From Puniceibacterium sediminis (lineage in GTDB: Bacteria; Pseudomonadota; Alphaproteobacteria; Rhodobacterales; Rhodobacteraceae), in assembly GCF_900188035.1 (NCBI RefSeq), contig NZ_FZNN01000027.1, forward strand, positions 1-36,815: DNA of 36,815 nt, written 5' to 3'. The position numbers were made by a program, and so were the translations under genes. The notes below the pieces were generated by a model. The model saw only the letters and a list, made by a program, of their open reading frames with translations, did no database searches and had not been told where the DNA came from. Positions 4,039 through 31,098 of the stretch are shown piece after piece (within the stretch, counting starts at the first letter, position 1; each line of letters starts with the position of its first letter).

Positions 4039-4198
4039 CAGGCTTGGGTCCTCCAAAAGAGATTATTGTTTTCTAACATATATTTCGTTCTGGACCAAGT
4101 TGAGCGTTTACCCCTTTTTGGATTTGGCTTAGCGTCGTTTCGCGAGATCTGGGAATCGACCGGACATTTTTTCGGTCCAAAAATTACGGGAGGGCAAC
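4039..4198. promoter_or_regulatory. Divergent promoter region: hydrolase autotransporter / synthetase operon
   Basis: This 160-base AT-richer gap separates the two divergent start codons, so it should carry promoters for both. On the minus strand TTGGTC, 17 bases, TAGAAA (about 4070-4098) is a loose sigma-70-like match for the autotransporter. On the plus strand TTTACC, 17 bases, TAGCGT (around 4109-4137) is weaker. An inverted repeat GACCG (10-base gap) CGGTC at about 4157-4177 sits just before the operon's ribosome site and could be an operator or hairpin. No regulator gene is present in the window, so the controller is unknown. Confidence 0.4.
4187..4195 (+). promoter_or_regulatory. Ribosome binding site deciding the GTG start of the first NRPS gene
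   Basis: A GGGAGGG run lies about four bases before the GTG at 4199. No better ATG occurs nearby in frame, and the C-domain sequence starts within the first residues, so the GTG start is well supported. Confidence 0.7.
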
Positions 4199-16000: not shown

Positions 16001-19000
16001 TGCGGTTGCTGGGCCGGATAACCGCAGAGTTCGGGACCGAGCCGAGCCTTGAGTGGATCTTTGCCTACCCGCGTCTGAGTGAGATGGCGGCAGCGCTGGA
16101 CGCCCGCGCCGGTGAGCGCCACGAGGCATTGCCTGCACGCTCCTTGTCGGATCGGGTGCCAGCGCTGCCACAACAGCAGCAGCTGCATCTGCTGGAGGCG
16201 GTCAGTGATCCGGGTCCGGCCTATAACATCTGCCTGCGGCTGGATTTTGGCCAGCGGCTTGCGGGTGAAACGCTGGCGCTTGCCATGAGACAACTGGCTC
16301 GGCGTCATGCCTCTTTGCGCACAACATTTGACTGGGGCCAAGATCAGCTGGATCAGGTGATCGCGCCGGATGTGGCTGCGGATCTGGCAGCAGAACTGCT
16401 AAGCGCAGAGGGCGGTTTGGCGGTGCTGGATGGTTTTGCCCAACGGCCCTTTGCCCAGGAGGGTGGGCCGCTTTGGCGGGTTGGCCTGATGGATCGTGGC
16501 GATGCGGGCAGCACGGTGATTCTGGTCCTGCATCATATCATCAGCGATGCCTGGTCTGCGGAAATCATGGTGCGTGATCTGCTGGACGCCTATCAGCGGG
16601 TTGCGCTGGCGGTTGATCCATTGCCGATGCTGGAACGGGACTTTGCCGATCATGCGCTATGGGTCGTGACCGCAGATGAGGGGCGCGCCGCCGCTCTGGA
16701 TTTCTGGCGCGAAGCTGCGGCGCAGATGCCTGCGCTTACGGCGCTGCCGGGGGAGTCTCCGCGTCCAACCGAAAAATCCTTTGCCGGTGCAAGGTCATCA
16801 CGCAAGCTGCCCGCGGATCTGTTGCGGCAGGTGCAGCGGCGTGCGCGGGTGCTTCGCACGACCCCGTTCCAGATGGTACTGACGGCCATCGCCACTTATG
16901 CGGCGGATGTTTTGGAGCGGCGTAATCTGGTGATCGGAACGGTCAGTGCAGGACGTAACCGACCGGGCATGGACAAGGTGATCGGCCTGTTTGCCAATAC
17001 CTTGCCCCTCTGCCTCGATCTGCCCGAGGGGCAGAGCTGGGCTGATCGGATCGCGCTTGTCCGTGCTGCCCTGCTGGGGGCTTCAGCGCATGATCTGGTC
17101 AGCCTACAAGAGATCGTGGCGACCCTTGGCCAGCGACCCGACCCATCGTCCAACCCGCTGTTCGAGATCTGCGTAACCCATGATGACCGGCGCGGGCTGG
17201 CACAGTTGGGTGCGGAGCTGGGCTTTGATTTTGCTGAAATGGTTCTGCCAACGACGCAGTTCGACCTGTCGTTCTATCTGATCGAAACGGGGCGAGATGC
17301 GACGCTGGATGTGACCTATGCGACGGCGATCCATTCCCCGGCAAGGGCCGAGGAGGTGCTGGACGCCGTTTTTGCAGCGCTGGCGCGGATGTGCAGCGAT
17401 CCGAGCGGACCAGCGGATCGACAATTCACTCTGGCACCTCTGCGTGACACAACCGCTAGGCCGACCTCCGCTATGCCGGGCGTTATGGCACCCCAAGGCC
17501 GCGTACCTGAACCGACGGCGCTGCAAAAGCGGCTGTGGTTTGTGGACAGCTTCGAGAACGGCGAACTCTATGAGGCAGCGCCGACCTACTACAACATGGC
17601 GGCGCAATACGTTCTGGACGCTGAGGTGAGCGCCATCTGTCTTGGTGACCGTCTGGGCAGGTTGTATCAGAAGATACCGGCCTTATCGGTGGCCTTTGAC
17701 ATGCGTTCGGATCAGCCGCGCTTCACGGTGGCGACCGCACCGGTTTGGAGCTGTGTTGATCTGGAGCCGGATGCGATCGACGCATTCATAGATGCGCCAT
17801 TTGATCTTTCAGCGGGCGGCTTGTTGCGGGCGGCGCGCGTGGCCGGTGCTGACGGCACGCATAGGCTGCTTTTGGTGGCGCATCACATCTTGACCGATCT
17901 GCGTGGGCTTGACCGGCTGGCCGAGGCGCTGTTGCAGGATGAAATCGCGCCCGATCTGATGCAGGGAAGCCTCGCGCCTGCGCAGGCAGGTGTCGAAACG
18001 GATCTGGCATTCTGGCGCGAGATGCTGGGTGCCAATCCGCCGCGGCTTTTGCTGCCGGTGGATCATCCCCGAGCTGCGGTGCACGTGTTCCAACGCGGGA
18101 CCGTCACGATGTCGCTGGGCGCGGCAGAATGTGCGGCGCTTGACGCCAGTGCCGTGCAGCAAAAAATAGCTTTGGATGATCTGATACTTGCGGGTTTTGT
18201 TGCGCTGCTGCACCGCCTCAGCGGGCAGGACAGCATCGTACTGGGTCAGACCTGCGCGCGACAGGGTAGTGGCCTTGGAGCGCATGACAATCTGGTGACG
18301 CTGAACATCGCGCTGCATGCGCAGCTGAGCACAGGAGACATGATTGCGGAAATAGCACGTCAGGCGCGGCAGGCGGAACTGCACGGACAGACGGATTTTG
18401 ATGTGGTTGTTCTGGACCTGCGGCCTGAAAACGACATGAGCCGCACCGCGTTGTTCGACATTCTGATGGTGCGCGAAAGCGATCCCGCGACGACGCGCTG
18501 CACGCCCGGTGCGGTTGGTTGGGGCAAGTACGATCTGGTGCTGGCCCCGTTACGGCGAGCTGACGGCGGGCTGGATTTGGGCCTGACGTTCAACAGCTAC
18601 ATGTTCGATACCGCAACGATCCGCCATTGGGGTGAGATGTTGGCCCACCTGCTCGGGGTACTGCCGCACAGCGGGGATCAGCCCTTTGACCTGCTGCCAC
18701 TCATGCCTGAGGCCGCGGTCGCGCCGCTGATTGCTGCGGGCGCGCCGCGTCGCAGTACCGTGGACATCGCCTTTGCCTCGGTGCCTGCGGCACTGCGGGC
18801 TGCTGCCGTCGCCCATCCCGATGCGGTTGCGCTGTGGGACGATGCGGGGTGCACGACCTACAGTACGCTGGATGCTGACGCACGTGATCTGGCCTACAGG
18901 CTGGTCGCCGGGGGCGTGCAGCAGGGCGACCGGGTTGCGGTGCTGCTGGCGCGCGGACCCACCTATGTGCGTGCCATGCTGGCCGTGATGCAGGCGGGGG

Positions 19001-21945
19001 CAGCCTTTGTGCCGCTGGATATGCAGGCCGCGCGGGACCGTACCGCGCGCATTTTGGAAGATGCCGGGGTGCGCTGTATTCTTGTTAGCGGCGATGCGGG
19101 GGCTGATCTTCTGCCGACGGGCATTGCGGTCGTGGACGTGGCCTCGGCACCCCTAGACGAAGGGCCGCAGCCCACACTCCCCAAGGTGAGGGCGCAGGAC
19201 GCGGCTTATGTTATCTTTACCTCTGGATCGACCGGGCGCCCCAAAGGAGTGGTTGTCGAACATCGCAATCTTCTGGCGCTGGTGCTGGGGCAAGGTGGGG
19301 TCTATCCCATCGCGGCCGGTGATCGCTGGAGCTGGTTCCATTCGCCCGCCTTCGACTTTTCCGTGTGGGAGGTCTGGGGTGCATTGCTGACGGGCGGTGA
19401 AGTTGTGGTTATTCCCGACGCGGCGCGCACCGATTTGGCCGCCTTCAGGTCGATTTTGGCACAGAGTGGGGTGACGCAGCTTAGCCTGACGCCATCGGCC
19501 TTTCGCGCGCTTTCGGATCTGGAGATGACCGAAGGTGCCGACGCGCTCGCGATAAAGGCAGTGTGGTTCGGAGGAGAGGCTTTAACGCCTGCGGTTGTGC
19601 AACCATGGTCACAGCGCTACCCGGATTGCCAATTGATCAATCTGTTCGGCATCACTGAAACGACTGTGCACACAACGTTCCGACCGCTCACCCCGGCGGA
19701 TCTGAATCGCAGCGACAGCCCCATCGGCGCGCCATTGCCAAGCTATGGGCTGACCATCCGCGACCGTGCCCTGCGCCCCGTTCCCGCAGGGGTTCAGGGT
19801 GAAATCGTGGTCAGCGGGTCTGGCGTCGCGCGTGGTTATCTGGGACAGCCAGAACAGACGGCGGCGCGCTTTGTCGACGATCCACATGATCCCGGTCGGC
19901 GGCTTTACTTATCGGGCGACCTCGGGCGGATGAGTTTGAGTGGCGAGGTCACCTATCTGGGGCGTGCTGACGATCAGGTCAAACTGCGCGGCTACCGGAT
20001 CGAGCTGGGCGAAGTGGAAAGCGGGCTTTGCAGCTTTGTGGGCGTTCGGGGAGCTGCGGCCGGGCTGCTGGGCGACACCGGCAGCGACGCAATCCTTGCC
20101 GTCTGGATAACGCTTGAGGGGCCGGTGGATCCGGATGCCCTGAGCGCGCATCTGGCGGCGGCCCTGCCGGCCTATATGATCCCGCGGCGAATATTTGTGG
20201 TGGACACGCTGCCCCTGACCCTGAATGGCAAGATTGACCGCAAGGCGCTGCGCCAGATGACCGACCACCCGATTGGGGCCGATGGCGATGCCGCCGCGCC
20301 GCGTCCGGGGCCTGAGAGTCGGATTGCCGAAATCCTATCTGCGCTGCTGGACCGGCCCGCGATCGGGCGTACCGAGAGCTTTTTTGCCCTTGGCGGGCAC
20401 AGCCTGATGGCGAACAAGGCGGTGCTGCGGCTGCGTGCGCAATTGGGAATGACTCTTAGCCTGCGGGATTTCTTTGCGGCGCAGACTGTGGCGGCGCTGG
20501 CGGCCCTTGGCGCGATGGAACACGTTGTATCAGAGCCGACGATCCTGCCGGTGCCCGATGCAGAAAGCTATCCGCTTTCCTCAGCTCAGACCCGCCTTTT
20601 TGCGATGCAGACGGCGCAGCCGGAATCGGCATCCTATAACATGGTGGGGGGGTTCATCATCGACGGGGCGCTGGACCACGCGGCGCTGGCGCTGGCCTTT
20701 GGCGATCTTATCGACCGCCACGAAATTCTGCGCACGCGGTTCGTCACCCGAGCGGGCCGACCGATGCAGGTCATCGACGCGCCGGGCGCAGCGTTTGACC
20801 TGTTCGAAGCGGAGCCGGGCGGAGGTACAACAGATGCCCGAATTTCCCGCGCTCTGGATCATGAGTTTGCGCATGTCTTTGATCTGGCGCGCGGGCCGCT
20901 TTTGCGTGCGGGACTGGGTGCGCTGGGTGCGGATCAATGGCTGCTGGTGCTAAACCTCCACCACATCATTTCCGATGGCTGGTCTGTGCCTATCATGCTG
21001 GCGGACCTTTCAGCGTTTTACGCTGCCCGCAGCGGTGCGGGTGACGCGCGGCTGCCTGAACCGTTGGCGATCCAATACCGCGATTTTGCCTGCTGGCAGA
21101 TGGATCAGCCCGAAGGGCATGTGGTGGATGCGGCGCGGGATCACTGGCTGCAGCGTCTGGGCGCAGGGGCTACCGTGGCAAGCCTGCCAACGGATGCTCC
21201 ACGACTGGCGTTACGGTCGGGTCGCGGGCAGATGGCGCGCCACCGGCTGGACGCCTCGACCAGCGCGGCGCTGCGTTCGCAGCTTTCGCAGGCGGGCAGT
21301 ACATTGTTTTCCGTCTGTGCTGCGGCGCTGCATATTCTACTGCGGCTGCGTGGCGCTTGCGAAGGTGCGACGGTGATCGGTACGGCAGACGCCGGGCGCG
21401 ACGTGATAGAAACCGAGGATCAGCTTGGTTTCTATCTCAACTTATTACCGCATGTTCTGGACCTTGGCGCGAACGTGCCTGTTGTGGATTGGCTGGAGGG
21501 TGCTGCCCGCGAAACCGGCGCCATGCTGACGCACAAGACCGTCCCGTTCGAGCGGATGCTGGATGCCTTGGGTCTGCGGGCGGAACCGGGGCACAATCCG
21601 GTGTTTGACATCCTGTTGCTGGTGCAGAACAATGAAGCGACACGTAAGAACCTTGGGCGGCTTGGCCTGCGGGAGGTGCCGGATCAGACCCGCACTGCGC
21701 GCTATGATCTGAACCTCATGGTCGAGGATCGGACCGAGATCGAGCTGGTGCTGGAGTATGATACAGCGCTGTTCAACACTGACACAATGACCTGGTTTCT
21801 GGCGGATTTTGCCCGGTTGCTTGATGGCTTCGTCAAGACGCCAGAGAGCAGCCCGCTTGATATTCTGGGCGTGACGGATGCCGCGCAGGCGGATACGGCG
21901 CAGGGACTGCTTGATGCTGACGACCCGCTGTTGGGGGCGCTCTGA
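8062..21945 (+). CDS. Hybrid lipopeptide megasynthase FAAL-ACP-KS-AT-ACP-AMT-C-PCP-C-C-A-PCP-C
   Basis: This 4627-residue assembly-line protein should start the lipopeptide. Domain order: fatty acyl-AMP ligase (about 1-573), ACP (Ser627), ketosynthase (684-1105), malonyl-type acyltransferase (about 1190-1480), ACP (Ser1600), class III PLP aminotransferase (about 1757-2175; Lys2010), C (His2311), PCP (Ser2643), C (His2825), C (His3275), A (about 3575-4065), PCP (Ser4114) and a C-terminal C (His4301). The ligase-KS-ACP-aminotransferase-C order is that of MycA/ItuA, which make beta-amino fatty acids, but here the acyltransferase is built in rather than supplied by a separate gene. The TTG start overlaps the previous stop by four bases, with GAGG seven bases upstream. 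One C-PCP pair lacks an A domain and two C domains stand side by side. The protein ends on a C domain and so must dock to a partner starting with A, namely the NRPS at 23866-31098. Confidence 0.93.
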   Translation: MNSSGAFDHPGLPDPVSAPDLWRAFLMIARAGVATVTRRNRAGEDMTLNAAELEDSARTLALQLTAAGAKAGDCVLLVNSDPMAFVCGFWACQAAGLTAVSMPPMGTKVQVERTRAALGVLGRAWVLTEDPAAREALEDADEVIGAFVMTGDRFDHLEGTVNAYLTRAEKVCTTDPEAIAVIMFSSGSTGDPKGVELSHRAILAQTVMLRDALGLSARDCFVNWMPMSHDFGLFHFHILPLLSGLPQVLMATEDFARRPVSWLRALHDHGGTVTGGPNLALQMVTNLLKPQRAAQLDLRRLRCITLGAEPLDPAVLRAFARCLQPAGLEPTALWPAYGLAEATLVISMRSGLETVHVARRALEPGQRIEPLTHDDPEAVELPLLGKPVLGAKLRIVDEAETPLAEGTVGHLQVRCDSLMRGYRNRPDHSKQALRAGGWLATGDIGFLQKGQFVMVGRAKDVIISGGRNYHPADLERIALGAPGLSPMHQVAIAQGRDPAGGGIRTLAFLRGRWHPDSAESLQEVIADHVVAQTGVVLDHVFVVRDLPRTTSGKLQRHALARAFEQGAYADQLSGESDAVALRGAPLRRAISDGNVAAVTARICEEAALLSGTLVDATTGLMDQGLSSRQAVALCARLGAWLGLELSIAQLFDHPSPRALAQALIRDTASLDADAVMSTPQSSEDARIAVIGYGCRFPGGDSPAEFWDLLTTPRPVVRPIPEDRWGKAAGDSMLPPAALLSQIDEFDAGLFGLARGEAEAMNPVQRLLLQVLWQALEHAGLDATQLRGQRVGLFVGLSDSGLATGRGEIIADGDALAAYAVSGSAGSIAVGRMAHLFDFRGAALAVDTACSSSIVALDLAAQALRQGRCDLAIAGGANLILSPDLHAGLHRMGALSSDGLCKTFDASANGYGRGEGAGLVVLKRLDEALRDQDNLRAELLATTLNHDGQSASVTAPNGRAQRDLLRRALQEADLAGGDLDWVETHGTGTPLGDPIELEALRAVLRGTPGRVLPIGAVKSRIGHLEAAAGIAGVIKVLLALEHGAVPPDRACAQLNDRFDWSAGELQPIAATLDWSGGGRRIAGIASFGMSGTNAYAILSSPPAAAVVGVSDRPLVVPISVQSAAAGAPLHQALSAVLEKAPPEARAELTAGQACRRSGGPWRRACLVPRVGPLSDVVEAPFVKAMKAPRVVFAYPGQGAQAVAMGAGLYRNEPAFRAAFDLASEAAGPVEGRRLSEWLYGATAADEARITQTDLSQPALVAFGHALTELWAELGLRPDAVLGHSVGEIGAALASGQFGIETAMRLAVRRGQLMQDRAGAGAMLALRADEKTALGLLDGLPDTVIAGYNGPAALSISGPVEQIDQLQARAEAAGCATALIRVARAFHSPAMAQAADELIDGRALNAGPGVLPVYSTLSGTLAAPGGFGAPQYWRDQMLQPVRFLQAAQAAANSGETLFMEIGPGAVLSRLGAAATPDAVWIGGAGGQETLAEAAGAAWSHGAALDWARYFGTRGASGDRLPRHPMADQPMPRRPVGAAALGVSVPLASPVSSSVAAQDGVQQSDLMPDLLQTEILPIVARISGLTVERIAQDAPMTALGMDSLGMLQLQRALSSRLGLEVDLRALFETYETPRKLADLLASTRPAPIPVPDSPALPQGAEGRSGGMAEVMRAQLQMVEDIIARQLQVMSGGGTVPVSAAAPARPVVLARPAQAEIKGLFRQPKKDGSDLSAAQQDHVMDLSRRWNARSAGSKAGAQSARTHVANSRAVFGFAPDLKELTYPLMSDRAEGAHVWDVDGNRYVDVTMGFGVYLCGHKPDFVTKALHEELDRGAAIGPATPLAEQVAERIYAMTGAERSAFFSTGTEAIMCAVRIARAVTGRQRIVIFKGAYHGSFDGILATGWIDDDGTPQTAPMTDGTLQGMVDSVITLDYGDMAGLEVIERYADDIALVLVEPVQSRNPENRPLEYLRALRELTRARDVPLLFDEVISGFRFAPGGMQEIYGIEADLVTYGKVLGHGQPIGVLSGSARYMDAVDGGAWRYGDDSGPGTRTAFVAGTFNGHPMALAAARAVLDHIRDAGSDFFAQLAERTEVMCQRLDMLFEAADVPVRMERFGSLFRFSYGPGAEILNTHLLNNGVFVWEQRNCFLSTAHGDAEVDLIVDAARQGVAALKAAGWFGACSQPRVVAHMASGAGELALRRQAALAHPGTWTDLIVLRLGATRYAPEVVAIAWAQVCQRHPALRACLAPDGTRRVGDAAAAAFEHHQFAPDSGGLDTVLDDWSKQALSRVFAFDRAPLRLSLLEVGEQALALTSSHLGFDGWSLALILGELGQTLDGDMPDPVDAPDTYRLWEENADFFRLDTPSERMVLPVDGPDPETVTPRGQRVTRMDIAPLYAEMAQRMRVVGTTPFVGFMAPYVVLLAWLSGQSRITVGVPVAGQALSGCLNLVGNLSFVRPVTVDLTAGMTLTEVGRLLHSEILKPGSRPPLDGLPERHVLFNLDGPIDLGAGLACAEIHPVPIAGARADLFLNLLRIGDRVVLDLDWNSDRFSGRSVQAWLDAYLALVGQAARGDLTLAKAFDLLQAEFPEARPATRVARQEPGRSQSADDTIPARAFTASEAVLARIWEDLLGTSVTTPDADFFDLGGGSLQAVRLLGRITAEFGTEPSLEWIFAYPRLSEMAAALDARAGERHEALPARSLSDRVPALPQQQQLHLLEAVSDPGPAYNICLRLDFGQRLAGETLALAMRQLARRHASLRTTFDWGQDQLDQVIAPDVAADLAAELLSAEGGLAVLDGFAQRPFAQEGGPLWRVGLMDRGDAGSTVILVLHHIISDAWSAEIMVRDLLDAYQRVALAVDPLPMLERDFADHALWVVTADEGRAAALDFWREAAAQMPALTALPGESPRPTEKSFAGARSSRKLPADLLRQVQRRARVLRTTPFQMVLTAIATYAADVLERRNLVIGTVSAGRNRPGMDKVIGLFANTLPLCLDLPEGQSWADRIALVRAALLGASAHDLVSLQEIVATLGQRPDPSSNPLFEICVTHDDRRGLAQLGAELGFDFAEMVLPTTQFDLSFYLIETGRDATLDVTYATAIHSPARAEEVLDAVFAALARMCSDPSGPADRQFTLAPLRDTTARPTSAMPGVMAPQGRVPEPTALQKRLWFVDSFENGELYEAAPTYYNMAAQYVLDAEVSAICLGDRLGRLYQKIPALSVAFDMRSDQPRFTVATAPVWSCVDLEPDAIDAFIDAPFDLSAGGLLRAARVAGADGTHRLLLVAHHILTDLRGLDRLAEALLQDEIAPDLMQGSLAPAQAGVETDLAFWREMLGANPPRLLLPVDHPRAAVHVFQRGTVTMSLGAAECAALDASAVQQKIALDDLILAGFVALLHRLSGQDSIVLGQTCARQGSGLGAHDNLVTLNIALHAQLSTGDMIAEIARQARQAELHGQTDFDVVVLDLRPENDMSRTALFDILMVRESDPATTRCTPGAVGWGKYDLVLAPLRRADGGLDLGLTFNSYMFDTATIRHWGEMLAHLLGVLPHSGDQPFDLLPLMPEAAVAPLIAAGAPRRSTVDIAFASVPAALRAAAVAHPDAVALWDDAGCTTYSTLDADARDLAYRLVAGGVQQGDRVAVLLARGPTYVRAMLAVMQAGAAFVPLDMQAARDRTARILEDAGVRCILVSGDAGADLLPTGIAVVDVASAPLDEGPQPTLPKVRAQDAAYVIFTSGSTGRPKGVVVEHRNLLALVLGQGGVYPIAAGDRWSWFHSPAFDFSVWEVWGALLTGGEVVVIPDAARTDLAAFRSILAQSGVTQLSLTPSAFRALSDLEMTEGADALAIKAVWFGGEALTPAVVQPWSQRYPDCQLINLFGITETTVHTTFRPLTPADLNRSDSPIGAPLPSYGLTIRDRALRPVPAGVQGEIVVSGSGVARGYLGQPEQTAARFVDDPHDPGRRLYLSGDLGRMSLSGEVTYLGRADDQVKLRGYRIELGEVESGLCSFVGVRGAAAGLLGDTGSDAILAVWITLEGPVDPDALSAHLAAALPAYMIPRRIFVVDTLPLTLNGKIDRKALRQMTDHPIGADGDAAAPRPGPESRIAEILSALLDRPAIGRTESFFALGGHSLMANKAVLRLRAQLGMTLSLRDFFAAQTVAALAALGAMEHVVSEPTILPVPDAESYPLSSAQTRLFAMQTAQPESASYNMVGGFIIDGALDHAALALAFGDLIDRHEILRTRFVTRAGRPMQVIDAPGAAFDLFEAEPGGGTTDARISRALDHEFAHVFDLARGPLLRAGLGALGADQWLLVLNLHHIISDGWSVPIMLADLSAFYAARSGAGDARLPEPLAIQYRDFACWQMDQPEGHVVDAARDHWLQRLGAGATVASLPTDAPRLALRSGRGQMARHRLDASTSAALRSQLSQAGSTLFSVCAAALHILLRLRGACEGATVIGTADAGRDVIETEDQLGFYLNLLPHVLDLGANVPVVDWLEGAARETGAMLTHKTVPFERMLDALGLRAEPGHNPVFDILLLVQNNEATRKNLGRLGLREVPDQTRTARYDLNLMVEDRTEIELVLEYDTALFNTDTMTWFLADFARLLDGFVKTPESSPLDILGVTDAAQADTAQGLLDADDPLLGAL
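10111..12980 (+). other. Domain block: KS-AT-ACP chain-extension module without ketoreductase
   Basis: The ketosynthase keeps its full triad: Cys849 in DTACSSS, His984 in ETHGTGT and His1022 in KSRIGHLEAA. The acyltransferase has Ser1283 in GHSVGE, and His1385 in RAFHSPAM. The AFH motif points to malonyl-CoA rather than methylmalonyl-CoA. The ACP follows at once (LGMDSL, Ser1600). No KR, DH or ER is present, so the product on this ACP should be a beta-ketoacyl chain, the proper substrate for the aminotransferase that follows. Confidence 0.9.
13330..14590 (+). other. Domain: class III (glutamate semialdehyde-type) PLP aminotransferase
   Basis: The domain starts near RTHVANSRAVF and contains the GTEAIMCAVRIAR cofactor loop, the LLFDEVISGFR Asp motif, and TYGKVLGHGQPIG with the Schiff-base Lys2010. 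A location right after an ACP holding a beta-ketoacyl chain and before a C domain is the same as in MycA/ItuA/BmyA, where this domain makes the beta-amine on the carrier-bound acyl chain. Confidence 0.9.
14616..16100 (+). other. Domain block: C-PCP pair with no adenylation domain
   Basis: The C domain has SSHLGFDGWS: the first His of the HHxxxDG motif is Ser, but the second, catalytic His2311 and the Asp-Gly are kept. It should join the beta-amino fatty acid to the next residue. After it comes a short linker and a PCP (DLGGGSLQAV, Ser2643), with no room for an A domain of about 500 residues. The PCP would have to be charged by an A domain acting in trans. Confidence 0.85.
16160..18690 (+). 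other. Domain block: tandem condensation domains
   Basis: Two full-length C-type domains lie back to back with only a short linker. The first has LHHIISDAWS (His2825), FANTLPLCLDL and NPLFEICV. The second has VAHHILTDLRG (His3275), and its downstream motifs are more diverged. No PCP or A lies between them. One of the pair is therefore surplus to a simple one-C-per-residue chain. Confidence 0.82.
18760..21840 (+). other. Domain block: A (Thr-like code)-PCP-C
   Basis: The A domain shows FTSGSTGRPKG (about 3719), FDFSVWEVW, FGITETTVH, the A8 motif LRGYRIELGEVE and A10 NGKID (Lys4057). Hand alignment gives pocket residues D-F-W-S-W-G-L-V-H-K; the nearest code I know is Thr (DFWNIGMVHK), with three differences, so Thr or a similar small hydroxy residue is a tentative call. 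The PCP has GGHSL (Ser4114). The last C domain has LHHIISDGWS (His4301) and ends the protein, so it must receive its acceptor from another protein. Confidence 0.82.
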
Positions 21946-21948
21946 TCG

Positions 21949-23805
21949 ATGTGCGGAATTACCGGGATCTACCGTTCTTCGGGGCTGAGCGACGTTGACA
22001 GAGGTGTTCTGCCCGCGATGTTGAACGCCATCCGCCATCGTGGTCCGGATGAAGAGGGGCAGTTCATCGCGGATCGGGTCGCGATGGGGTGCCGTCGCCT
22101 GTCGATCATCGACCTTGCCGACGGGCAGCAGCCAATGTTTGCGGCAGAGCGCCAGATCGCAGCCGTGGCCAATGCCGAGATCTACAATCACGACGCGCTG
22201 CGCGCCGATCTGACTGCCCAGGGCGCGCGTTTTGGCAGCCGTTGCGATGTCGAGGTGATACCGCATCTTTATGCGCGTGACGGGCTTGATCTGGCACGCG
22301 GGCTGAACGGTCAGTTCGCCTTTGCGGTCTATGACACGGCCCGCGACCGGCTGGTTCTGGGGCGCGACCAGACCGGTATCGCGCCGATGTTCTGGGCGCG
22401 GGTCCGGGACGGCATCCTGTTCGGGTCAGAAATTAAGGCGCTGCTGGCACATCCGGAAATCGCGCGGAAACTGGACCCGGCGGGGCTGGATCAGATCCTG
22501 ACTTACCCCGGCCTTGTCAGCCCGCGCACGATGTTTCATGGCGTTCATGCCCTGCGTCCCGGGCATCTTCTGGTGGTTGAGCGCGGCGCGGTGCGCGAGG
22601 AAAAATACTGGGATTACGATTTCCCGGCCGCGCCCATGGCTGACGGAGATGAAGCCGCCTTGCTGGATGAGCTGGACGCCGCCCTGCGAGGTGCAGTGGC
22701 GCGGCGGTTGGTGGCGGATGTGCCGGTTGGCGTCTATATCAGTGGCGGGCTGGATTCTGCGCTGATCGCGGCGATGGCACATCAGATTGCGCCTGACACG
22801 GCGCGGCATTCCTTCTCCATCACCTTTCCAGATTGCGCCATCGACGAAGCGCGGTGGCAGGCGATTGTGCGTGACCAGATCGGATCGGTGCACCATCAGG
22901 TTACTTTCAGCGAGGATGATATCCTGCAAAACCTGCGCCAGATCGTCGTGTCTGGCGAAACCGCGCTGAAGGAAAGCTATAACGCTTGCACCCTCGTACT
23001 CGCTCGTCTTGTCGCGGCCCAGGGGATGCGGGTGGTCCTGACCGGGGAAGGCGCGGACGAGCTGTTCGGCGGTTACGTCGGCTACCGGCTGGACTTGACT
23101 CGCGAAACCGAGTTCTGCGGGGATATCGAAGAGATGATCGAAGAAGAGACCCGCGCACGGCTTTGGGGGGACGGCGGGTTCTTTTATGAGCGCGACTATG
23201 CGGCCAATGCCGATCTGACTGGCGCGCTTCTGTGTGATGGCCTGCTAGCGCGGCGGGCGGAATTTTCGACGCTGTCCGCGTCGCCTGTGGATCATGCCCA
23301 ACTGGCAGGGCGCAGCGCCTTTCACAAACGGTCCTACCTCGATCTCAAACTGCGGTTGCCGGATCACTTGCTGGCGGATCATTCCGACCGCGTCGCCTAT
23401 TGCGCCAGTGTCGAGGCCCGCTATCCGTTTCTGGACCCCCATGTGATCGACGTGGCTCGCCGGATTCCACCCGCGCTTATGCTGCGCGGCGGGGAAGAGA
23501 AATATATGCTCAAGGCACTGGGCGCGCGCTATTTGCCACCCGAGCTGTGGCAACGGCGCAAGTTCAGTTTTGTCGCCCAAGGTAGCCCGCACCTACTGCG
23601 CTGCGGGCAGGACTGGGTGATGGATCTGCTGGCTCCGGAAACGGTGCGGCGGCGCGGCGTTTTCAACCCTGAAACCGTGGCGCGGCTGCGGGCGCAATAT
23701 GAAAGCCCCGGCTTTGATCTGAGCCAGACGTTCGAAGACGATTACCTGATGATTGTCCTCACCACCGAGATTTTGATGGATGCGTTCGACCTGACCGTTG
23801 CCTAA
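21949..23805 (+). CDS. asnB: Glutamine-hydrolysing asparagine synthase-type amidotransferase
   Basis: This 618-residue protein is of normal length for AsnB-type enzymes, which take ammonia from glutamine and use ATP to turn a carboxylate into an amide. The N-terminal glutaminase begins MCGITGIYR, so Cys2 is the nucleophile, with RHRGPDEEG and NAEIYNH in place; the second Gly of the usual NGEIYN is Ala. The synthase half has the PP-loop SGGLDS at 265-270 and TGEGADELFGGY. It lies three bases after the megasynthase stop and 60 bases before the next NRPS, inside the same operon, so it serves this pathway. It could supply Asn, or amidate an Asp side chain or free carboxylate of the product. Free versus carrier-bound substrate cannot be told from sequence. 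Confidence 0.93.
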   Translation: MCGITGIYRSSGLSDVDRGVLPAMLNAIRHRGPDEEGQFIADRVAMGCRRLSIIDLADGQQPMFAAERQIAAVANAEIYNHDALRADLTAQGARFGSRCDVEVIPHLYARDGLDLARGLNGQFAFAVYDTARDRLVLGRDQTGIAPMFWARVRDGILFGSEIKALLAHPEIARKLDPAGLDQILTYPGLVSPRTMFHGVHALRPGHLLVVERGAVREEKYWDYDFPAAPMADGDEAALLDELDAALRGAVARRLVADVPVGVYISGGLDSALIAAMAHQIAPDTARHSFSITFPDCAIDEARWQAIVRDQIGSVHHQVTFSEDDILQNLRQIVVSGETALKESYNACTLVLARLVAAQGMRVVLTGEGADELFGGYVGYRLDLTRETEFCGDIEEMIEEETRARLWGDGGFFYERDYAANADLTGALLCDGLLARRAEFSTLSASPVDHAQLAGRSAFHKRSYLDLKLRLPDHLLADHSDRVAYCASVEARYPFLDPHVIDVARRIPPALMLRGGEEKYMLKALGARYLPPELWQRRKFSFVAQGSPHLLRCGQDWVMDLLAPETVRRRGVFNPETVARLRAQYESPGFDLSQTFEDDYLMIVLTTEILMDAFDLTVA

Positions 23806-23845
23806 AATCGCAGTATTTTGAACCGCCGCGCGAGTGGCACCAGAC

Positions 23846-23869
23846 ATGAAGACAAGGCTATTACCATGA
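23846..23869 (+). other. Seven-codon mini-frame overlapping the next NRPS start (ATGA)
   Basis: ATG at 23846 reads MKTRLLP and ends in a TGA at 23867-23869 that overlaps the ATG (23866-23868) of the following NRPS in the classic ATGA arrangement. The upstream sequence has only a weak ribosome site (GAGTGG). It might couple translation across the 60-base gap after asnB, or be chance. Confidence 0.25.
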
Positions 23870-26800
23870 TCGACTACCGCCACGCGATTCTGACTCTGGC
23901 ACAGCAATTCCCCGATGCGGCGGCGGTCACTGACGAATCCGGGACGCTGACCCGAGGTGAGCTGGCGCTGCGGGCCGGGGGGGTGGCTGCATGGGCGGCG
24001 GATCTACCTCTTGGCGCAAACAAGGCGCGGATTGTCGCCGTTCTGGCCCCCGCCGGTGCGGCCCAGATCGCGGCCATGCTGGGGGTGTCTGCCAGCGGTG
24101 CCGCCTTTATGCCAGTCGACCCAAGCCTGCCAGCGGCGCGCATCCGCGCCATGCTGGAACGGGCCGGGCCGGTGGGGCTTCTGCATGCAGAGAACCTTGG
24201 CGATTTGGCACAATCTCTTGCCCCGGACCTGCCGCGCACCGCGCTGGAACAATTCGCCCCCGCCCCGCTGGAACTGGCTCCGATGCGCCCTGACGCAGCG
24301 GCCTATGTCATGTTCACCTCAGGTTCGACCGGCGCACCCAAAGGCATTCTGGGGCGTTACAAAAGCCTGAACCATTTCCTTACATGGCAGCGCGACAGCT
24401 TTGATCTGGATGCGTCGACGCGCAGCGCCCAACTGGCACCTGTGACCTTTGATGTCAGCCTGCGCGACGTGCTGCTGCCGCTAACCTTAGGTGGAGTCGT
24501 CACCGTGCCGCCGCGCGACCTGATTGCGGTGCCGCGCAAACTTTTGGACTGGCTGCGCCACCACGAGGTGACCCTGCTGCATTGCGTGCCCAGCCTGTTA
24601 CGCCTGCTAACCTCGGAACTGGCACTGTCATCCGGCACGGACCGGGTAACACCCGTCGCCCTGCGCCATCTGTTCCTGGCCGGAGAGCCGCTGCTGGGTC
24701 GCGATGTCAAAGCCTGGCGCATGGTGGCGGGCGCTGCGGCTGACGCGATGATCGTCAACCTCTACGGTCCGTCTGAAACCACGCTGGCCAAGGTCTTTGC
24801 CCGCGTTGGGCCGGACGGTGATCTGCCCGACGGGATGCTGCCCATTGGCCAGAGCCTGCCGGACACCGATGTGTTGATCCTCAAACCTGACCGGATTGCT
24901 GTGCCGGGCGAGATCGGTGAAATCTGTATTCGCACCGGGTATCCGTCGCTGGGCTATCTCAACGACCCCGCGGCAACCCGCGCGGGATTTCAGCGCAATC
25001 CGTTTGGCACCGAGGCCAACGATATCCTGTACCGCAGTGGCGATATGGGGCGGCTGCGCCCCGATGGGCAGATCGAATGTCTGGGAAGGCGCGACAGTCA
25101 GGTCAAGATCGCTGGCAACCGGGTGGAAGGTGGCGAGGTCGAGTCCACGCTGCGCGATGTGCCCGGCATCACAGGCTGCACAGTCGTCATCAACCGCGAC
25201 GATCCCGCCGATCCGTTTCTGGTGGCCTATGTCACAGGCGCCAGCGAGCAGGATGCGCTGCGCGGTACATTGCGCGATACACTGCCGGATTACATGCTGC
25301 CGCGTTTCATCGTGCCGCTGACCGCATTGCCTTTGCTGATGAACGGCAAGATCGACAAGCGGGCGCTGCCCCGGCCAGAGGCTCTTGTTCATGGTGACGC
25401 GGGGCCGGTGCCTGCGGAAACTGAAACCGAGCGGCGGGTCGAGGCGATCTGGCAGCAAATTCTCAAACTGGACATCGTCGGCGTCGAAACCCCTTTTGCC
25501 AACCTTGGTGGCGACTCCCTCAAGGCGATCAAGGTTCTGGGCGCGATCTATCGTGATACCGGGATAGAGTTGCGCATCGCTGATTTCTTTGCCGCGCGGA
25601 CCATTCGCGCGCTTGCCAAAATTCTTGACGACCACCTGGGCGCCGACGGCGCAATGGTGTCGATCCCGCAGGCGCCCGCCGCCGCGAATGACCCGCTTTC
25701 GGATGCGCAGGAACCTTTGTGGGCGATGCAGAAGATCGGCCTGAATCCGACCGTCTACAATCTCTGTTTCGGATTCCGGGCCGACGACGGCCTGGATCTG
25801 ATCCGGCTTGAACGCGCATTTACCCATCTGATCCAGAGCCACGAAATCCTGCGCACCCGCATCGAGGAAGTGGACGGGGCGCCAAGGTCGGTGGTTGTGC
25901 CCCAGCCAGATTTCCGGATCGAAATGCTTGCGCTGCCCGACGACGTTGGTTTTGACCACGCGGCGCAGGATCTGCTGAACAGGGAACGTCAGCGCCCGTT
26001 TGATCTGGGGGTCGCTCCGCTATTGCGCGTCATCGCGGCGCAGTGCACAGGGGGCGGGCCGGTCTTTCTGGTGATCTCTTTTCATCATGCCATCTGCGAC
26101 GGAGAATCGCTGAACACTGTGGTCGAGCTGGTTGGGCAGGCTTATGTATCTGATGCGCCATTGCCTGTGCCGGTCCTGCAATACCGCGATGTAATCGCAT
26201 GGCAGAACGCGCGGCTGTCCGGCCCCGAAGCAGAGCGCCTGCGCCAATACTGGAAAACCTGTCTGGAAGCCGCCCCCCGAGCGGTCGTCCTCCCCGAGGC
26301 GCAGCCGCGCCCGGCGCGACAGCGGTTCGAAGGTGCCACCCTGCGGCACGATTTTCCCAGCGGCCTGGCCGGTGATCTGCTCAGCCTCTCCCGAGATATG
26401 GAAAGCAGCCTGTTCAACACGCTGCTCACGGGGCTGGCAATCGCGCTGGATCAGCGCGCGGATCAGCCGGATATGGTGATCGCCACACCAGTGCTGGGCC
26501 GCAACCACCCGGAGCTGGCGGATCAAATCGGGTTCTTCGCAAATACCCTCTGCCTGCGTGTGTCCCTTGATCGTGCAGCCAGCGTCGGCGATGCACTGAG
26601 AGATGTAACGCGGCGGGCGCACGAGGCGCTTGACCATCAGGACTGGCCGTTCAACCGACTGGTTAGCGACCTGAACGAGCCGCGCGATTTGTCGCGCAAT
26701 CCGGTGTGCAATGTCATGCTGGTGTTGTTTGATGCCGACCGCCCCGAGCTGAGCCTGCCGGGGGTGACCCTGACGCCCTTTGGTCGCGATACTGAATGGG

Positions 26801-29800
26801 CCTTCAGCCGGTTTGACCTTGTGTTCCACGTCACCCATGACAGCCGCACCGGCGCGCTGGTGCTGGACCTCAATCACGATACTGCGCTGTTTGACGCGAC
26901 ACAGGTTGCCCGGATCGCCCGGCATTTCCAGACCATCCTTGAGCAGCTGGGGACCGCACGGAACCGTGCCATCGGCGCGCTTAGTCCCTTTGATGCGGCG
27001 CAGTCGGAACTGATTGCCGCGCTCGACCGCACCGATCTGATGGCAGAAGAAACCAGCCTGACTGCACTGTTCACCAAGGTTGCCACAGCGACGCCCGAAG
27101 CTATCGCCGTCGAGGATGATAAGAGAACGCTGAGCTATGGCGAACTGGACCACTGGTCGAACGGCGTCGCGCAGGAGTTGGTCGCGCGTGGTGTCGGACC
27201 CGACCGGACCGTCGCCGTTTCGGGCGCCCGCTCGGCTGCCGGAGTGGTGGCAATCCTGGGTGTTCTCAAGGCCGGTGGCGCCTGGGTTGCTCTCGACGAA
27301 CGCTGGCCCCGGGCGCGCATTGACGCGGTAATCAGGGATGCGAACGCTGTTGTTCTGCTTGAGGCTGATGAGACACGCACGGCAAAAGAGGCCCTGCGGG
27401 TGCAACACATCGAACCCACCACAGAGGCGGTGGACCGTGCCGCCGCGTCGGCGCTGGCCTATGTGGTCTTTACCTCAGGATCGACAGGGACGCCCAAGGG
27501 GGTGATGATCGAACACCGTGCCGTTGCCAATATGGTGCGCCAGCAAATCCCGACCTTTGGCGTCACCGCCCGCAGCCGTTTCCTGCAATTTGCGGCCCCG
27601 GTGTTCGATGCGCATGTGTCCGAAGTGTTTGTCACTTTGCTCGCCGGGGGGCGACTGATCATCCCGGCGCGCGACACGCTGGAAAATCCGGCGGCATTGA
27701 AACGGGTGATGGCGGATCATGGCATTACACATATCACCCTGCCGCCGAGCTTTCTGGATGTGGCGCGCGATGTGCTGCCAGACACGCTTGAGGTGTTGAT
27801 CACAGCAGGCGAATCCGCTCGGCCGGAGGAGACCCGTCGCCTTGCCAACCGACTTCGCCTGATAAACGCCTATGGCCCGGCGGAAAATGCGGTTTGTTCG
27901 ACCATGCATTTGGTTGATCCGCTGGTTACACACGCTGCGGTGCCCATAGGCCGACCGATCAATGGCACTGGTCTGGCGCTGCTGGACGGATCGGGTCGCG
28001 CCGTGCCGGTGGGCGTCCCGGGCGAAATCATGCTGCATGGCGCTGGCCTGGCACGCGGCTATCTGGGGCAGCCGGACCTGACTTCGCTGGTATTTCCGTC
28101 GGCAGATGTTTCCGGTGGGCGGCGCTACGTCACCGGCGATATCGGTATCCTGCGCGATGACGGGGCGGTTGTATTTCTTGGTCGGCGCGACGATCAGATC
28201 AAGATCTCGGGCCAGCGGTTGGAGTTGGCCGAGGTCGAGGCACGGCTGAACTCGGCGCCCGATGTCGCCCGTGCAATCGCGGCCCCTGTGATCGGGGCGG
28301 GAGGGCGTACAACGCTGGGTGCCTGGGTTCTCAAAGCTCCCGGGCCGGTCAGCCTTTGGCCTTCAGTCGCCGAGTTCTTTGTTTATGATGACGTGGTCTA
28401 TCAGGCCATGGCGGGTGATCGGGGCCGAAATGCGCGCTACGGAGAAGGGTTCCAGCGCCACCTGCCCGGTCAAGTCGTGCTTGAGGTCGGCCCCGGCCCC
28501 TATGCCATCCTGTCGCGCATGGCTATCGAGGCGGGGGCCCGACATGTTTACGCAGTCGAAATCAACCCCGAGATTGCCGACCGCGCCCGGCTTGCCGTCG
28601 CCGAGGCTGGGTTGCAGGACCGGATCACGGTTCTGACAGGCGATGCGACCGAAGTGGTACTGCCGGAACCCGCCGACTGGTGCATTTCCGAAATTGTGGG
28701 GGGCATCGGTGGTTCCGAAGGTGCGGCATCGATCCTGAACGGAGTACGTGCCAAATTGCGCCAACCGGAAAACATGCTGCCCCGCAGCAGCGTGACCCGG
28801 ATCGCCGCAGTGGATCTGCCGCTGTCACAGATTGACCCCGGATTTTCGACCGTGGCGGCGGATTATGTGCGCCGGATCTTTGAACAGCGCGGTCGGCCTT
28901 TTGATCTTAGGCTGTGTCTGCGCCGTTTCGACCGTGATCGGGTGCTCAGCAGCTCTGATGTTTTTGAAGAGCTGGATTTTACTCGCGACATGGCGCTGGA
29001 AGGGGATCATGACATTACCCTTACGGTGCTTCGGGATGGGCATATGTCGGGATTTGTGATGTGGCTGACGATGGACGTGGGCGCAAACAGACGGATTGAT
29101 GTGCTGAGCGATACGTCAAGCTGGCTTCCGGTTTACGTGCCGCTGGGGGCCGATGGCATAGCCGTACGTCAGGGCGATACAATCCGCGCACGCATCGCCC
29201 GAACGCTGAATTCGGGCGGTCGGCATCCGGATTTTTACATTGATGGCGCTCTGATGCGCGGGGCAAAAAATGTCGCGCCGATCGGCGCGGCGGTGCCGCA
29301 TATGGCATCCGGATTCGGTGAAAGCCCGCTCCATGCACACCTGTTTGACGCCGCTGGCCAACCGCGCATTGTCGAGGATGGTTTTCTCGACCGCATCCGC
29401 AGCCACGCCGCCGCCCATCTACCGCGCTATGCGGTGCCCGGTATCCTGCGCGAGATCGAGACGCTGCCGCGCACAGTCAACGGCAAGCTGGCGCGCACCG
29501 AATTGCCCGACCTTGTTGCGCAGGGCTCTAGTACTGCGTCGACTGACCCGATCGAAATCCCGGCTCTTGCACGTCGCATTGCCGCTGTATTTGCCCGCAT
29601 GCTGGAGCGGGAGAGTATTGATCCGACCGTTGGATTTTTTGAATTGGGCGGTGACTCAATCTCGGCGGTGCGGGCCGTCGGGGCCTTGGCTGCCAAACAG
29701 ATCGAGGTGACCGCCGCAGAGATCCTGCATCACCAAAGCGCCGTGGCACTGTCCTCTGTCGCGCGGCAATCGCACGGTCAAGATGTACCTTCGCAATTTG

Positions 29801-31098
29801 GTCCGGTTCCAGCGCATCCGGTGCAAGCTTGGTTCCTGTCGCGCGACGTCAAGTTGCGCCGCCGGTTCAATCAGTCGGTCCTTATCACCCTGCCGGAACG
29901 CGCAGATCCAGCGGGCCTTGAGGACGCGCTGCAGGTATTGCTGCGCCGCCATGGTGCGCTGAACCTGAGAATCGATCCCGATAAGGGCACGATAGAAGAG
30001 CCAGATCAGCCGCCAGAGCAGCCAATGCTGTTGATCGAAGATCTGCGCCTTGTGCCGCCTGCCAGCCTTTCGGCCCGGCGCGACGCTGCTGCAGAGCAAA
30101 CCCACGCCGGAATCGATCCGCTTTCGGGCCGACTATTTTCCGCGCTGTTGTTGCGTGAAGCCGACCACGACCAACTGCTGTTGGTGGCGCATCACATGTC
30201 AGTGGACATGCTGTCCTGGCGAACCCTTGTTGCAGATTTTGATCAGGTGCTGCGCAATTCGCAGACACCGCTGCCCAAATTGCGCGCACGCTATTCGGAT
30301 ATCTGTGCGGCATTGGCCAAAGAGGCGTTTTCCCCGATCACCGCAACCGAAAAGCCTTTTTGGGAGGGAGTCGCCCGGTTGTCTGAAACCCTGACCCTGC
30401 CCAAGCCAGTGAACGGTGCGGTGCGTGGCATGATGCATTTGCGCCTTGATATTCCCGTTTCAGAAGCGGCATTTGACGCACATAAGGGCGCGGACATGCA
30501 GTCATTGCTGCTGCGGGCGATGGCAGATGCGTCGACCGAGGTTCTGGGCTGGCCGCAAACGGTGATTGATTTGGAAACGCACGGACGTGATCTACCGCGG
30601 CAGGTTCCGGATTGTTCGGCTGTTGTTGGCTGGTTTACGCGCATCACGCCCGTGGTGCTGGGCGCGCAATCGTCGGGCGATCCGCTGACAGAACTGCCAC
30701 GCGGCGGACTTGGTTTTGGGTTGCTGGCGTGGCAGCGCAGCGATGGCGACGCACTTCGCAAGGTGCAGGCGCCAATGGCGCTGAATTATCTTGGCGACCT
30801 GTCGACTGCCAAAAGCGGGCAGGGTGCCACGCCGGGATTGCGTATTGATTGGGATGGGCTGGGGCATGGCGTCGACCCCGCGTTCCGTACCGGGCATGTC
30901 CTAAGCATTCTGGCCCATGAAAGCGATACAGGGCTTTTCCTGTCGCTGAGCGCCGATCTTGAACTTGTCCGCCGCGAGGTGGCCGAGGCCTTTGGCAGCG
31001 CCATGCGCGCGGCGTTGGTGAAGGCCGCTGCCGTCCCTAAAGTCGCGTCCTTGGATGGGATTGATTTGGAAGCGCTGGCCGCCGACCTTGGGATATGA
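23866..31098 (+). CDS. NRPS A-PCP-C-A(PRMT-like MT)-PCP-E
   Basis: This 2410-residue protein adds two residues and methylates and epimerises the second. Order: A (about 15-510, FTSGSTGAPKG at 150, Lys495), PCP (GGDSL, Ser551), C (about 600-1030, HHAICDGES, His741), A (from about 1060; FTSGSTGTPKG at 1202) interrupted after its A8 motif by a methyltransferase (about 1495-1795), A-domain tail with NGK (Lys1874), PCP (GGDSI, Ser1931) and an epimerase (about 1970-2400; HHMSVDMLSW His2110, ETHGR, VGWFTR, NYLG). I chose ATG 23866 because the upstream TTG at 23818 lacks a ribosome site, while AAGG lies eight bases before this ATG and A-domain homology starts directly after it. It begins with A and so fits the megasynthase that ends in C; it ends in E and so should feed the C domain of the C-A-PCP-TE protein. 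Confidence 0.92.
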   Translation: MIDYRHAILTLAQQFPDAAAVTDESGTLTRGELALRAGGVAAWAADLPLGANKARIVAVLAPAGAAQIAAMLGVSASGAAFMPVDPSLPAARIRAMLERAGPVGLLHAENLGDLAQSLAPDLPRTALEQFAPAPLELAPMRPDAAAYVMFTSGSTGAPKGILGRYKSLNHFLTWQRDSFDLDASTRSAQLAPVTFDVSLRDVLLPLTLGGVVTVPPRDLIAVPRKLLDWLRHHEVTLLHCVPSLLRLLTSELALSSGTDRVTPVALRHLFLAGEPLLGRDVKAWRMVAGAAADAMIVNLYGPSETTLAKVFARVGPDGDLPDGMLPIGQSLPDTDVLILKPDRIAVPGEIGEICIRTGYPSLGYLNDPAATRAGFQRNPFGTEANDILYRSGDMGRLRPDGQIECLGRRDSQVKIAGNRVEGGEVESTLRDVPGITGCTVVINRDDPADPFLVAYVTGASEQDALRGTLRDTLPDYMLPRFIVPLTALPLLMNGKIDKRALPRPEALVHGDAGPVPAETETERRVEAIWQQILKLDIVGVETPFANLGGDSLKAIKVLGAIYRDTGIELRIADFFAARTIRALAKILDDHLGADGAMVSIPQAPAAANDPLSDAQEPLWAMQKIGLNPTVYNLCFGFRADDGLDLIRLERAFTHLIQSHEILRTRIEEVDGAPRSVVVPQPDFRIEMLALPDDVGFDHAAQDLLNRERQRPFDLGVAPLLRVIAAQCTGGGPVFLVISFHHAICDGESLNTVVELVGQAYVSDAPLPVPVLQYRDVIAWQNARLSGPEAERLRQYWKTCLEAAPRAVVLPEAQPRPARQRFEGATLRHDFPSGLAGDLLSLSRDMESSLFNTLLTGLAIALDQRADQPDMVIATPVLGRNHPELADQIGFFANTLCLRVSLDRAASVGDALRDVTRRAHEALDHQDWPFNRLVSDLNEPRDLSRNPVCNVMLVLFDADRPELSLPGVTLTPFGRDTEWAFSRFDLVFHVTHDSRTGALVLDLNHDTALFDATQVARIARHFQTILEQLGTARNRAIGALSPFDAAQSELIAALDRTDLMAEETSLTALFTKVATATPEAIAVEDDKRTLSYGELDHWSNGVAQELVARGVGPDRTVAVSGARSAAGVVAILGVLKAGGAWVALDERWPRARIDAVIRDANAVVLLEADETRTAKEALRVQHIEPTTEAVDRAAASALAYVVFTSGSTGTPKGVMIEHRAVANMVRQQIPTFGVTARSRFLQFAAPVFDAHVSEVFVTLLAGGRLIIPARDTLENPAALKRVMADHGITHITLPPSFLDVARDVLPDTLEVLITAGESARPEETRRLANRLRLINAYGPAENAVCSTMHLVDPLVTHAAVPIGRPINGTGLALLDGSGRAVPVGVPGEIMLHGAGLARGYLGQPDLTSLVFPSADVSGGRRYVTGDIGILRDDGAVVFLGRRDDQIKISGQRLELAEVEARLNSAPDVARAIAAPVIGAGGRTTLGAWVLKAPGPVSLWPSVAEFFVYDDVVYQAMAGDRGRNARYGEGFQRHLPGQVVLEVGPGPYAILSRMAIEAGARHVYAVEINPEIADRARLAVAEAGLQDRITVLTGDATEVVLPEPADWCISEIVGGIGGSEGAASILNGVRAKLRQPENMLPRSSVTRIAAVDLPLSQIDPGFSTVAADYVRRIFEQRGRPFDLRLCLRRFDRDRVLSSSDVFEELDFTRDMALEGDHDITLTVLRDGHMSGFVMWLTMDVGANRRIDVLSDTSSWLPVYVPLGADGIAVRQGDTIRARIARTLNSGGRHPDFYIDGALMRGAKNVAPIGAAVPHMASGFGESPLHAHLFDAAGQPRIVEDGFLDRIRSHAAAHLPRYAVPGILREIETLPRTVNGKLARTELPDLVAQGSSTASTDPIEIPALARRIAAVFARMLERESIDPTVGFFELGGDSISAVRAVGALAAKQIEVTAAEILHHQSAVALSSVARQSHGQDVPSQFGPVPAHPVQAWFLSRDVKLRRRFNQSVLITLPERADPAGLEDALQVLLRRHGALNLRIDPDKGTIEEPDQPPEQPMLLIEDLRLVPPASLSARRDAAAEQTHAGIDPLSGRLFSALLLREADHDQLLLVAHHMSVDMLSWRTLVADFDQVLRNSQTPLPKLRARYSDICAALAKEAFSPITATEKPFWEGVARLSETLTLPKPVNGAVRGMMHLRLDIPVSEAAFDAHKGADMQSLLLRAMADASTEVLGWPQTVIDLETHGRDLPRQVPDCSAVVGWFTRITPVVLGAQSSGDPLTELPRGGLGFGLLAWQRSDGDALRKVQAPMALNYLGDLSTAKSGQGATPGLRIDWDGLGHGVDPAFRTGHVLSILAHESDTGLFLSLSADLELVRREVAEAFGSAMRAALVKAAAVPKVASLDGIDLEALAADLGI
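23905..25640 (+). other. Domain block: A of unassigned specificity and PCP
   Basis: The A domain is complete, with A3, YGPSETT and A10 motifs. Hand alignment with GrsA gives pocket D-V-R-H-F-A-L-L-A-K. The Arg and His in the pocket (from TFDVSLRD and LLHCVPS) fit no common code I know. The A8 segment reads IAGNRVEGGEVE. The carrier that follows has NLGGDSL with Ser551. I do not assign a substrate. Confidence 0.8.
27040..29510 (+). other. Interrupted adenylation domain (Tyr-like code) with embedded PRMT-type methyltransferase
   Basis: The pocket read by hand is D-A-S-T-I-A-A-V-C-K, one residue from the known Tyr code DASTVAAVCK. After the A8 motif (KISGQRLELAEVE, from residue 1446) an insert of about 300 residues appears. 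It has a SAM-binding loop VLEVGPGPY (1538-1546), YAVEINPE, then ISEIVGGIGGSEG, with Glu1609 and Glu1618 nine residues apart as in the double-E loop of protein arginine methyltransferases. A beta-rich tail with a FVMWLTMDV segment and ending near FYID resembles the PRMT barrel. The A domain then resumes and ends at Lys1874. Site of methylation (backbone N or phenol O) is not decided by sequence. Confidence 0.82.
29560..31060 (+). other. Domain block: PCP and epimerase
   Basis: The carrier reads ELGGDSISAV; the DSI form is usual for carriers paired with epimerases. The epimerase keeps HHMSVDMLSWR (His2110), ETHGR, VVGWFTRITPV and MALNYLGD, all the diagnostic E-domain boxes, so a D-configured residue is expected at this position. 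Confidence 0.9.

Follow-up and report, generated by a model that had tools for sequence, protein, structure and literature searches.

Organization of the locus

The window, that is, the whole stretch of DNA analysed here, comprises 36,815 nucleotides of Puniceibacterium sediminis contig NZ_FZNN01000027.1. Its genes, and the parts of the NRPS on which this analysis centres, are as follows.

955-4056, minus strand: product that, by eye, looks like a beta-lactamase-like serine hydrolase whose C-terminus is of autotransporter type
4199-8065: C-A-T-TE NRPS (Pfam)
8062-21945: hybrid PKS-NRPS of 4627 aa with two AMP-binding stretches, a ketosynthase, an acyltransferase, a class-III aminotransferase, three Condensation stretches and four carrier stretches
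21949..23805, plus strand: asparagine synthase-like gene, directly upstream of the methyltransferase-bearing NRPS (Pfam, locus comparison)
23818..31098, plus strand: NRPS, putative order A-T-C-A(MT)-T-E (ORF list, Pfam, motifs)
27040..28335, plus strand: second A domain, N-terminal part to A8, with Tyr-like pocket code DASTIAAVC (Pfam AMP-binding, residues 1085-1416)
28180-28239, plus strand: A8 motif of the second A domain, GRRDDQIKISGQRLELAEVE
28336..29355, plus strand: PRMT-fold methyltransferase (MT) insert, 340 residues as modelled (phmmer, alignment, structure model)
28477..28503, plus strand: SAM-binding motif I, VLEVGPGPY, with both Gly in 80/80 alignment rows
28687..28719, plus strand: double-E loop SEIVGGIGGSE, with E1625 at 28690 and E1634 at 28717 (alignment with PRMTs)
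29116..29139, plus strand: SSWLPVYV, in the position of the THW loop of PRMTs, with its Trp but no His (alignment)
29380..29532, plus strand: resumed A domain, with A9 (LPRYAVP) at 29419-29439 and A10 (NGKLART) at 29479-29499
29635..29664, plus strand: carrier (T) motif FFELGGDSIS
30190..30219, plus strand: epimerization-type motif HHMSVDMLSW in the last Condensation-superfamily domain

The NRPS open reading frame on the plus strand encodes 2426 aa when read from TTG at 23818, an ATG at 23866 being a possible alternative start, and the whole interrupted module lies in frame within it. Pfam identifies two stretches each of the AMP-binding, Condensation-superfamily and carrier types, from the order and motifs of which the arrangement A-T-C-A(MT)-T-E is predicted. 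HHMSVDMLSW is presumably the signature of an E domain, which we take to carry the motif HHxxxDxxSW.

Inspection of the second A domain reveals that its sequence is left at about 28335 and that A9 returns at 29419. The spacer between the strand and A9 is 16 residues in the uninterrupted first A domain (LVAYV to A9, 25219-25302) versus 363 residues in the second (from LGAWV), which puts the length of the insert, located at the a8/a9 site, at about 347 residues. To judge by these motifs, the MT lies between a8 and a9. A structure model of the A-MT-A unit (mean pLDDT 89.6) places A-domain strands before the insert and a helix after it. The G+C content of the insert is 0.61, and that of its flanks 0.63 and 0.61. 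The initial annotation had proposed a PRMT-like domain after A8 of a Tyr-type A domain, and the motif coordinates, the pocket code and the A-MT-A model bear this out; its Glu1609 and Glu1618, numbered from the ATG at 23866, correspond to E1625 and E1634 counted from the TTG.

The neighbouring genes offer some indication of the product. As in the window, an asparagine synthase-like gene lies directly upstream of the MT-bearing NRPS in 8 loci, that of Desulfobulbus among them, out of 15 that were hand-picked from the best 80 of 146 relatives. The class-III aminotransferase encoded at 8062-21945 suggests a beta-amino fatty acid lipopeptide; mycosubtilin-type lipopeptides start from a beta-amino fatty acid, and the layout of this gene is reminiscent of theirs. 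Separately, a 43% relative of the 955-4056 product adjoins the Desulfobulbus NRPS.

The insert has a PRMT fold

Sequence search, alignment and structure modelling together identify the insert as a Rossmann part joined to a beta-barrel, as in PRMTs. A phmmer search of the PDB returned PRMTs as top matches (best E 7.4e-14), and all 50 rows listed in a VIA-align comparison of the insert model were PRMTs, a count that is no measure of the absence of other folds. Pfam gave weak matches only, with the PRMT5 model at 0.0025, below its cut-off. The PRMT fold proposed in the initial annotation is thus supported by searches, alignment, model and structure comparison, and the fold search that the annotation had named as a means of refuting the claim returned this fold, barrel included, and left the claim standing. 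PRMT6, PRMT7, PRMT8 and CARM1 share with the insert both the barrel-containing fold and an equally spaced double-E loop, but they act on protein arginine and possess a THW-loop His that is absent from the insert.

The TioS M domain (5wmm) shares its insertion site with the window insert, according to a portion of PMC11355689, but appears from its sequence to belong to another MT family. Membership of the insert in this TioS-type N-methyltransferase family was considered and rejected: in BLASTP, the N-methyltransferase of Tistrella matches the insert with an E value of 3.0 at best. Likewise, the insert matched 108 PDB sequences, and 5wmm does not appear among the 60 of them that were listed.

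Conservation of the double-E loop

Conservation was assessed in an alignment of 80 rows (A2), comprising the window and 79 of 80 loci (L052 was left out), these loci being the best 80 of 146 relatives. The insert holds two Glu nine residues apart, and the columns of E1625 and E1634 align with the double-E Glu of PRMT7 and PRMT6. Given this match and the place of PRMTs at the top of the PDB search, the Glu pair does not arise by chance; a chance motif was rejected on the PRMT alignment and on conservation across A2, and the double-E loop recognized in the initial annotation is real. The first column holds Glu in 72 rows and Gly in 8, a frequency biased upwards because one of the two search patterns contains that Glu. 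Neither pattern includes the second Glu, so the count for its column, Glu in 71 rows, Asp in 8 and Gln in 1, is free of that bias. Both Glu are kept in 71/80 rows.

Loss of the pair in close homologues had been named beforehand as evidence against the claim, and the alignment did not refute it. Close homologues keep the pair, though a distant clade of eight rows (L101, L103, L106, L109-L113) has lost both, with Gly and Asp replacing them together. These rows form one branch in a quick tree (SH-aLRT 99). In 6 of the 7 hosts of this Gly/Asp clade with a readable pocket code, the code starts with Gly and not Asp, so a substrate that lacks an alpha-amine is possible there.

A further landmark of PRMTs, known as the THW loop, is altered throughout. 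The window insert has no His before the Trp of this loop. Trp occupies its column in 80/80 rows of A2, and the residue before it is Ser in 33, Cys in 33, Ala in 9, Asn in 3, Gly in 1, Thr in 1 and His in none. Among 14 free-standing bacterial PRMT-like proteins (ORFs hand-picked among L002-L031), a joint alignment gave His before Trp in 12 and the Glu pair in 13. One free-standing protein with the Glu pair and the HW loop (L002, C58:18878-19270) is encoded in the genome of the window itself, and relatives of it (L004-L007) come from other genomes in the same family.

Distribution of relatives

In a tblastn search of named plasmids, which yielded 13 records, the insert matched best on Tistrella mobilis pTM3 (44.3%), followed by a Nostoc sp. 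ATCC 53789 plasmid (40.6%). A scan of genome contigs gave 146 relatives, the best 80 of which (L035-L114) span eleven phyla, as judged by record title: Pseudomonadota, Cyanobacteriota, Acidobacteriota, Chloroflexota, Bacteroidota, Myxococcota, Gemmatimonadota, Verrucomicrobiota, Planctomycetota, Actinomycetota and Thermodesulfobacteriota. Many of these are metagenome-assembled. The nearest relative lies in Puniceibacterium confluentis JSSK-17 (84% identity). Within the window's own family, 13 of 248 genomes hold some match and only the window's own genome a near full-length one, with at most 8 candidates scored per genome; the insert therefore looks patchily spread.

Other arrangements of the domain were also observed. 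Four long ORFs (L053, L080, L082, L094) hold it with no A domain before it; in L053, the one subjected to a domain scan, it comes after the KR domain of a PKS. In L065 (6001-7008), the insert is not at a8/a9 but is preceded by a C domain and followed by the body of a Tyr-like A domain. Nine ORFs of about 370-515 residues (L016, L017, L034, L062, L078, L102, L105, L107, L108) comprise the insert domain without an A domain, and some have an N-terminal stretch that, by eye, resembles a TubC docking domain. These short proteins could possibly act in trans on carriers.

Predicted specificity of the host A domains

Aligned against its counterparts, the window host A domain has the pocket code D-A-S-T-I-A-A-V-C, which we take to stand for Tyr and which has no acidic residue past the first Asp. 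The corresponding codes are DASTLAAVC in the Tistrella mobilis relative and, read by eye, DASTIAGIG in the Nostoc relative. Elsewhere in the window, the A-domain codes are DFFGTGALL (weak, first AMP-binding domain), DFWSAGLVH, DVRHFALLA and DLTKIGHIG.

Full codes were obtained for 124 A domains in 81 sequences (the window and the best 80 of 146 relatives). Tyr-like codes, by a pattern defined only after the codes were seen, occur in 43 of 63 A domains with the insert at a8/a9 distance (window included) versus 1 of 60 other A domains; the remaining one is that of L065, Tyr-like with the insert ahead of its body. Because an A domain and its insert may be inherited together, the 63 are not independent cases, and a Fisher value calculated for this contrast, with a pattern chosen in hindsight, overstates its weight if read literally. 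Twenty of the 63 hosts are not Tyr-like, with codes such as DVENIGAIT, DAFWLGGTF and a class that starts with G. Hosts with a DVExxG pocket and an intact Glu pair were seen in L089, L095, L096, L099 and L104, with L072 and L100 similar. The only PDB match of the L089 pocket region at 1e-20 is ApnA A1, which is bispecific for Arg and Tyr.

Tandem modules and published relatives suggest a probable methylated atom

The relatives speak to which atom the insert methylates. The T. mobilis pTM3 module has the order C-A[PRMT-like MT + TioS-like NMT]-T-TE, in which the second MT matches TioS 5wmm at 8.5e-46 and has no significant similarity to the window insert. The same tandem order recurs in L067, L079, L084 and L091, where the second MT starts 1155-1242 bases after the start of the first. 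An A10 pattern was found behind the second MT in L067, L084 and L091; it was looked for at the same place in L079 and not found. Since a separate TioS-like N-methyltransferase comes after the PRMT-like domain in these five loci (Tistrella included), the phenol oxygen would be left to the PRMT-like domain. The Tistrella MT is 44% identical to that of the window, with a Tyr-like A domain and the Glu pair kept (L032/L066), but it stands in tandem ahead of a terminal TE, whereas the window has a single MT and an E domain.

Didemnin contains N,O-dimethyl-Tyr, and the pTM3 stretch with the tandem module is presumably the did cluster. Portions of two papers bear on this organism: one names T. mobilis as a didemnin producer (PMC5577590), and the other used an oxygen MT from Tistrella as the outgroup of an OMT/NMT tree (PMC10949194). 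A second named relative, WP_159402678 (L033) of Nostoc ATCC 53789, adjoins a PKS gene and is a C-A(MT)-T-E protein with a single insert 41% identical to that of the window. According to passages of PMC6835634, this strain carries crpA-D and produces cryptophycin, and cryptophycin-1 holds 3-chloro-O-methyl-D-tyrosine, a residue that is chlorinated in addition, unlike the unit proposed for the window. WP_159402678 would then be CrpC of cryptophycin.

Published modules likened by description point the same way. In the part of PMC10127204 concerned with lyngbyapeptin B synthetase (Moorena bouillonii), LynB3-OMT and LynB5-OMT lie within a Tyr A domain, as in the window, and the first MT of LynB3, presumed to O-methylate Tyr, shows about 30% similarity to arginine methyltransferases; there an N-methyltransferase follows in the same A domain, whereas the window has a PRMT-like MT alone and then an E domain. 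In a portion of PMC10949194, HcaA-MT1 clusters with the VatN OMT, both HcaA MT domains having first been labelled N-methyltransferases by antiSMASH. The O-methyltransferase assignments of LynB3, HcaA and VatN in these excerpts rest on product structure and similarity (PMC10127204, PMC10949194), and the excerpts consulted yielded no measured activity for any member of the family. Finally, the Ms domains of KtzH and ColG, as described in part of PMC11355689, are side-chain O-methyltransferases at a8/a9, as is proposed for the window insert, and the Ms-Mb order of ColG resembles the tandem loci; they act on Ser, whereas the insert would act on Tyr. A statement that no such insert is known at a8/a9 was rejected on these same portions of PMC10127204 (LynB3), PMC10949194 (HcaA) and PMC11355689, and the initial annotation, which knew of no well-studied example at this site, had overlooked the PRMT-like LynB3 domain that PMC10127204, in the part concerned, had put in print in 2023. 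Literature searches that paired the double-E loop with O-methyltransferases, or interrupted adenylation domains with side-chain, arginine and O-methylation, found no paper.

Discussion

We conclude that the insert is very probably a PRMT-fold side-chain O-methyltransferase, which converts carrier-bound Tyr to O-methyl-Tyr and, through the E domain, leads to D-O-methyl-Tyr. By analogy with its relatives, it would methylate a side-chain heteroatom. The second A domain would activate L-Tyr and load the next carrier domain, and the insert would bind SAM in its Rossmann part. The tyrosyl side chain on the carrier would sit between the Rossmann part and the beta-barrel, where its phenol oxygen would be methylated; the double-E loop may use one Glu or the pair to hold and deprotonate the phenol OH, which would replace guanidine. 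Because an E domain stands behind the interrupted module, we infer a D-configured product, with the residue epimerized by that terminal domain to D-O-methyl-Tyr, the cryptophycin unit minus its chlorine. For the window, where the insert is the sole MT of the module, phenol O-methylation is the best reading of the tandem N-methyltransferases, the Nostoc/cryptophycin relative and LynB3 combined.

The initial annotation instead suggested that the domain perhaps holds the amino-acid amine, which would mean N-methylation of carrier-bound Tyr with the Glu pair gripping its amino group. PRMTs do methylate nitrogen, and most a8/a9 inserts in a partial table of interrupted A domains are backbone N-methyltransferases (portion of PMC11355689). 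This activity is nevertheless very unlikely here, since a TioS-type N-methyltransferase follows the PRMT-like domain in five loci, the cryptophycin-type relative has a PRMT-like MT alone and a product with O-methyl Tyr (if the ORF is CrpC; PMC6835634, in part), and the relevant portions of PMC10127204 and PMC10949194 interpret published relatives as methylating a phenol oxygen. That the insert is degenerate and plays a structural role only is highly improbable: its motif I does end in Tyr at a position that is acidic in 65/80 rows of A2, but it keeps the Gly pair of that motif, the acidic residue at post-I and both Glu of the loop, and Puniceibacterium confluentis retains the domain (L037).

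An extremely improbable alternative is a guanidine methyltransferase in an A domain that accepts Arg, alone or alongside Tyr, in the manner of ApnA A1. Its basis is the double-E loop, intact at PRMT spacing and equally expected of a guanidine binder, together with relatives in DVExxG A domains, among which the L089 pocket best matches the ApnA A1 structure. The window pocket, however, has no acidic residue after the first Asp, and the THW His is missing from every row of A2. Methylation of protein-arginine guanidine is likewise spoken against by the apparent Tyr specificity of the A domain and by the tandem N-methyltransferase in relatives. A broader proposal, which we consider unlikely, is that the active site is re-aimed by the host A domain: towards phenol oxygen in Tyr-type hosts, the guanidine of carrier-bound Arg in DVExxG hosts, and a third chemistry in the Gly/Asp clade where the first Asp is lost. 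If true, this would be a natural series in which one fold is switched between N- and O-methylation.

With phenol O-methylation as the preferred reading, the window insert would belong with the known side-chain O-methyltransferases of interrupted A domains (described in part in PMC11355689), as a PRMT-like Tyr branch. A large family of assembly-line MTs is hereby tied to the PRMT fold, with the Glu pair intact and the THW His absent. Because the top solved structures are PRMTs, how a double-E loop would act on a phenol becomes a directly testable question. The finding may, in addition, provide a rule by which O-methyl-Tyr in nonribosomal peptides could be predicted from sequence, for which the initial antiSMASH call of HcaA, as recounted in a portion of PMC10949194, may be compared.
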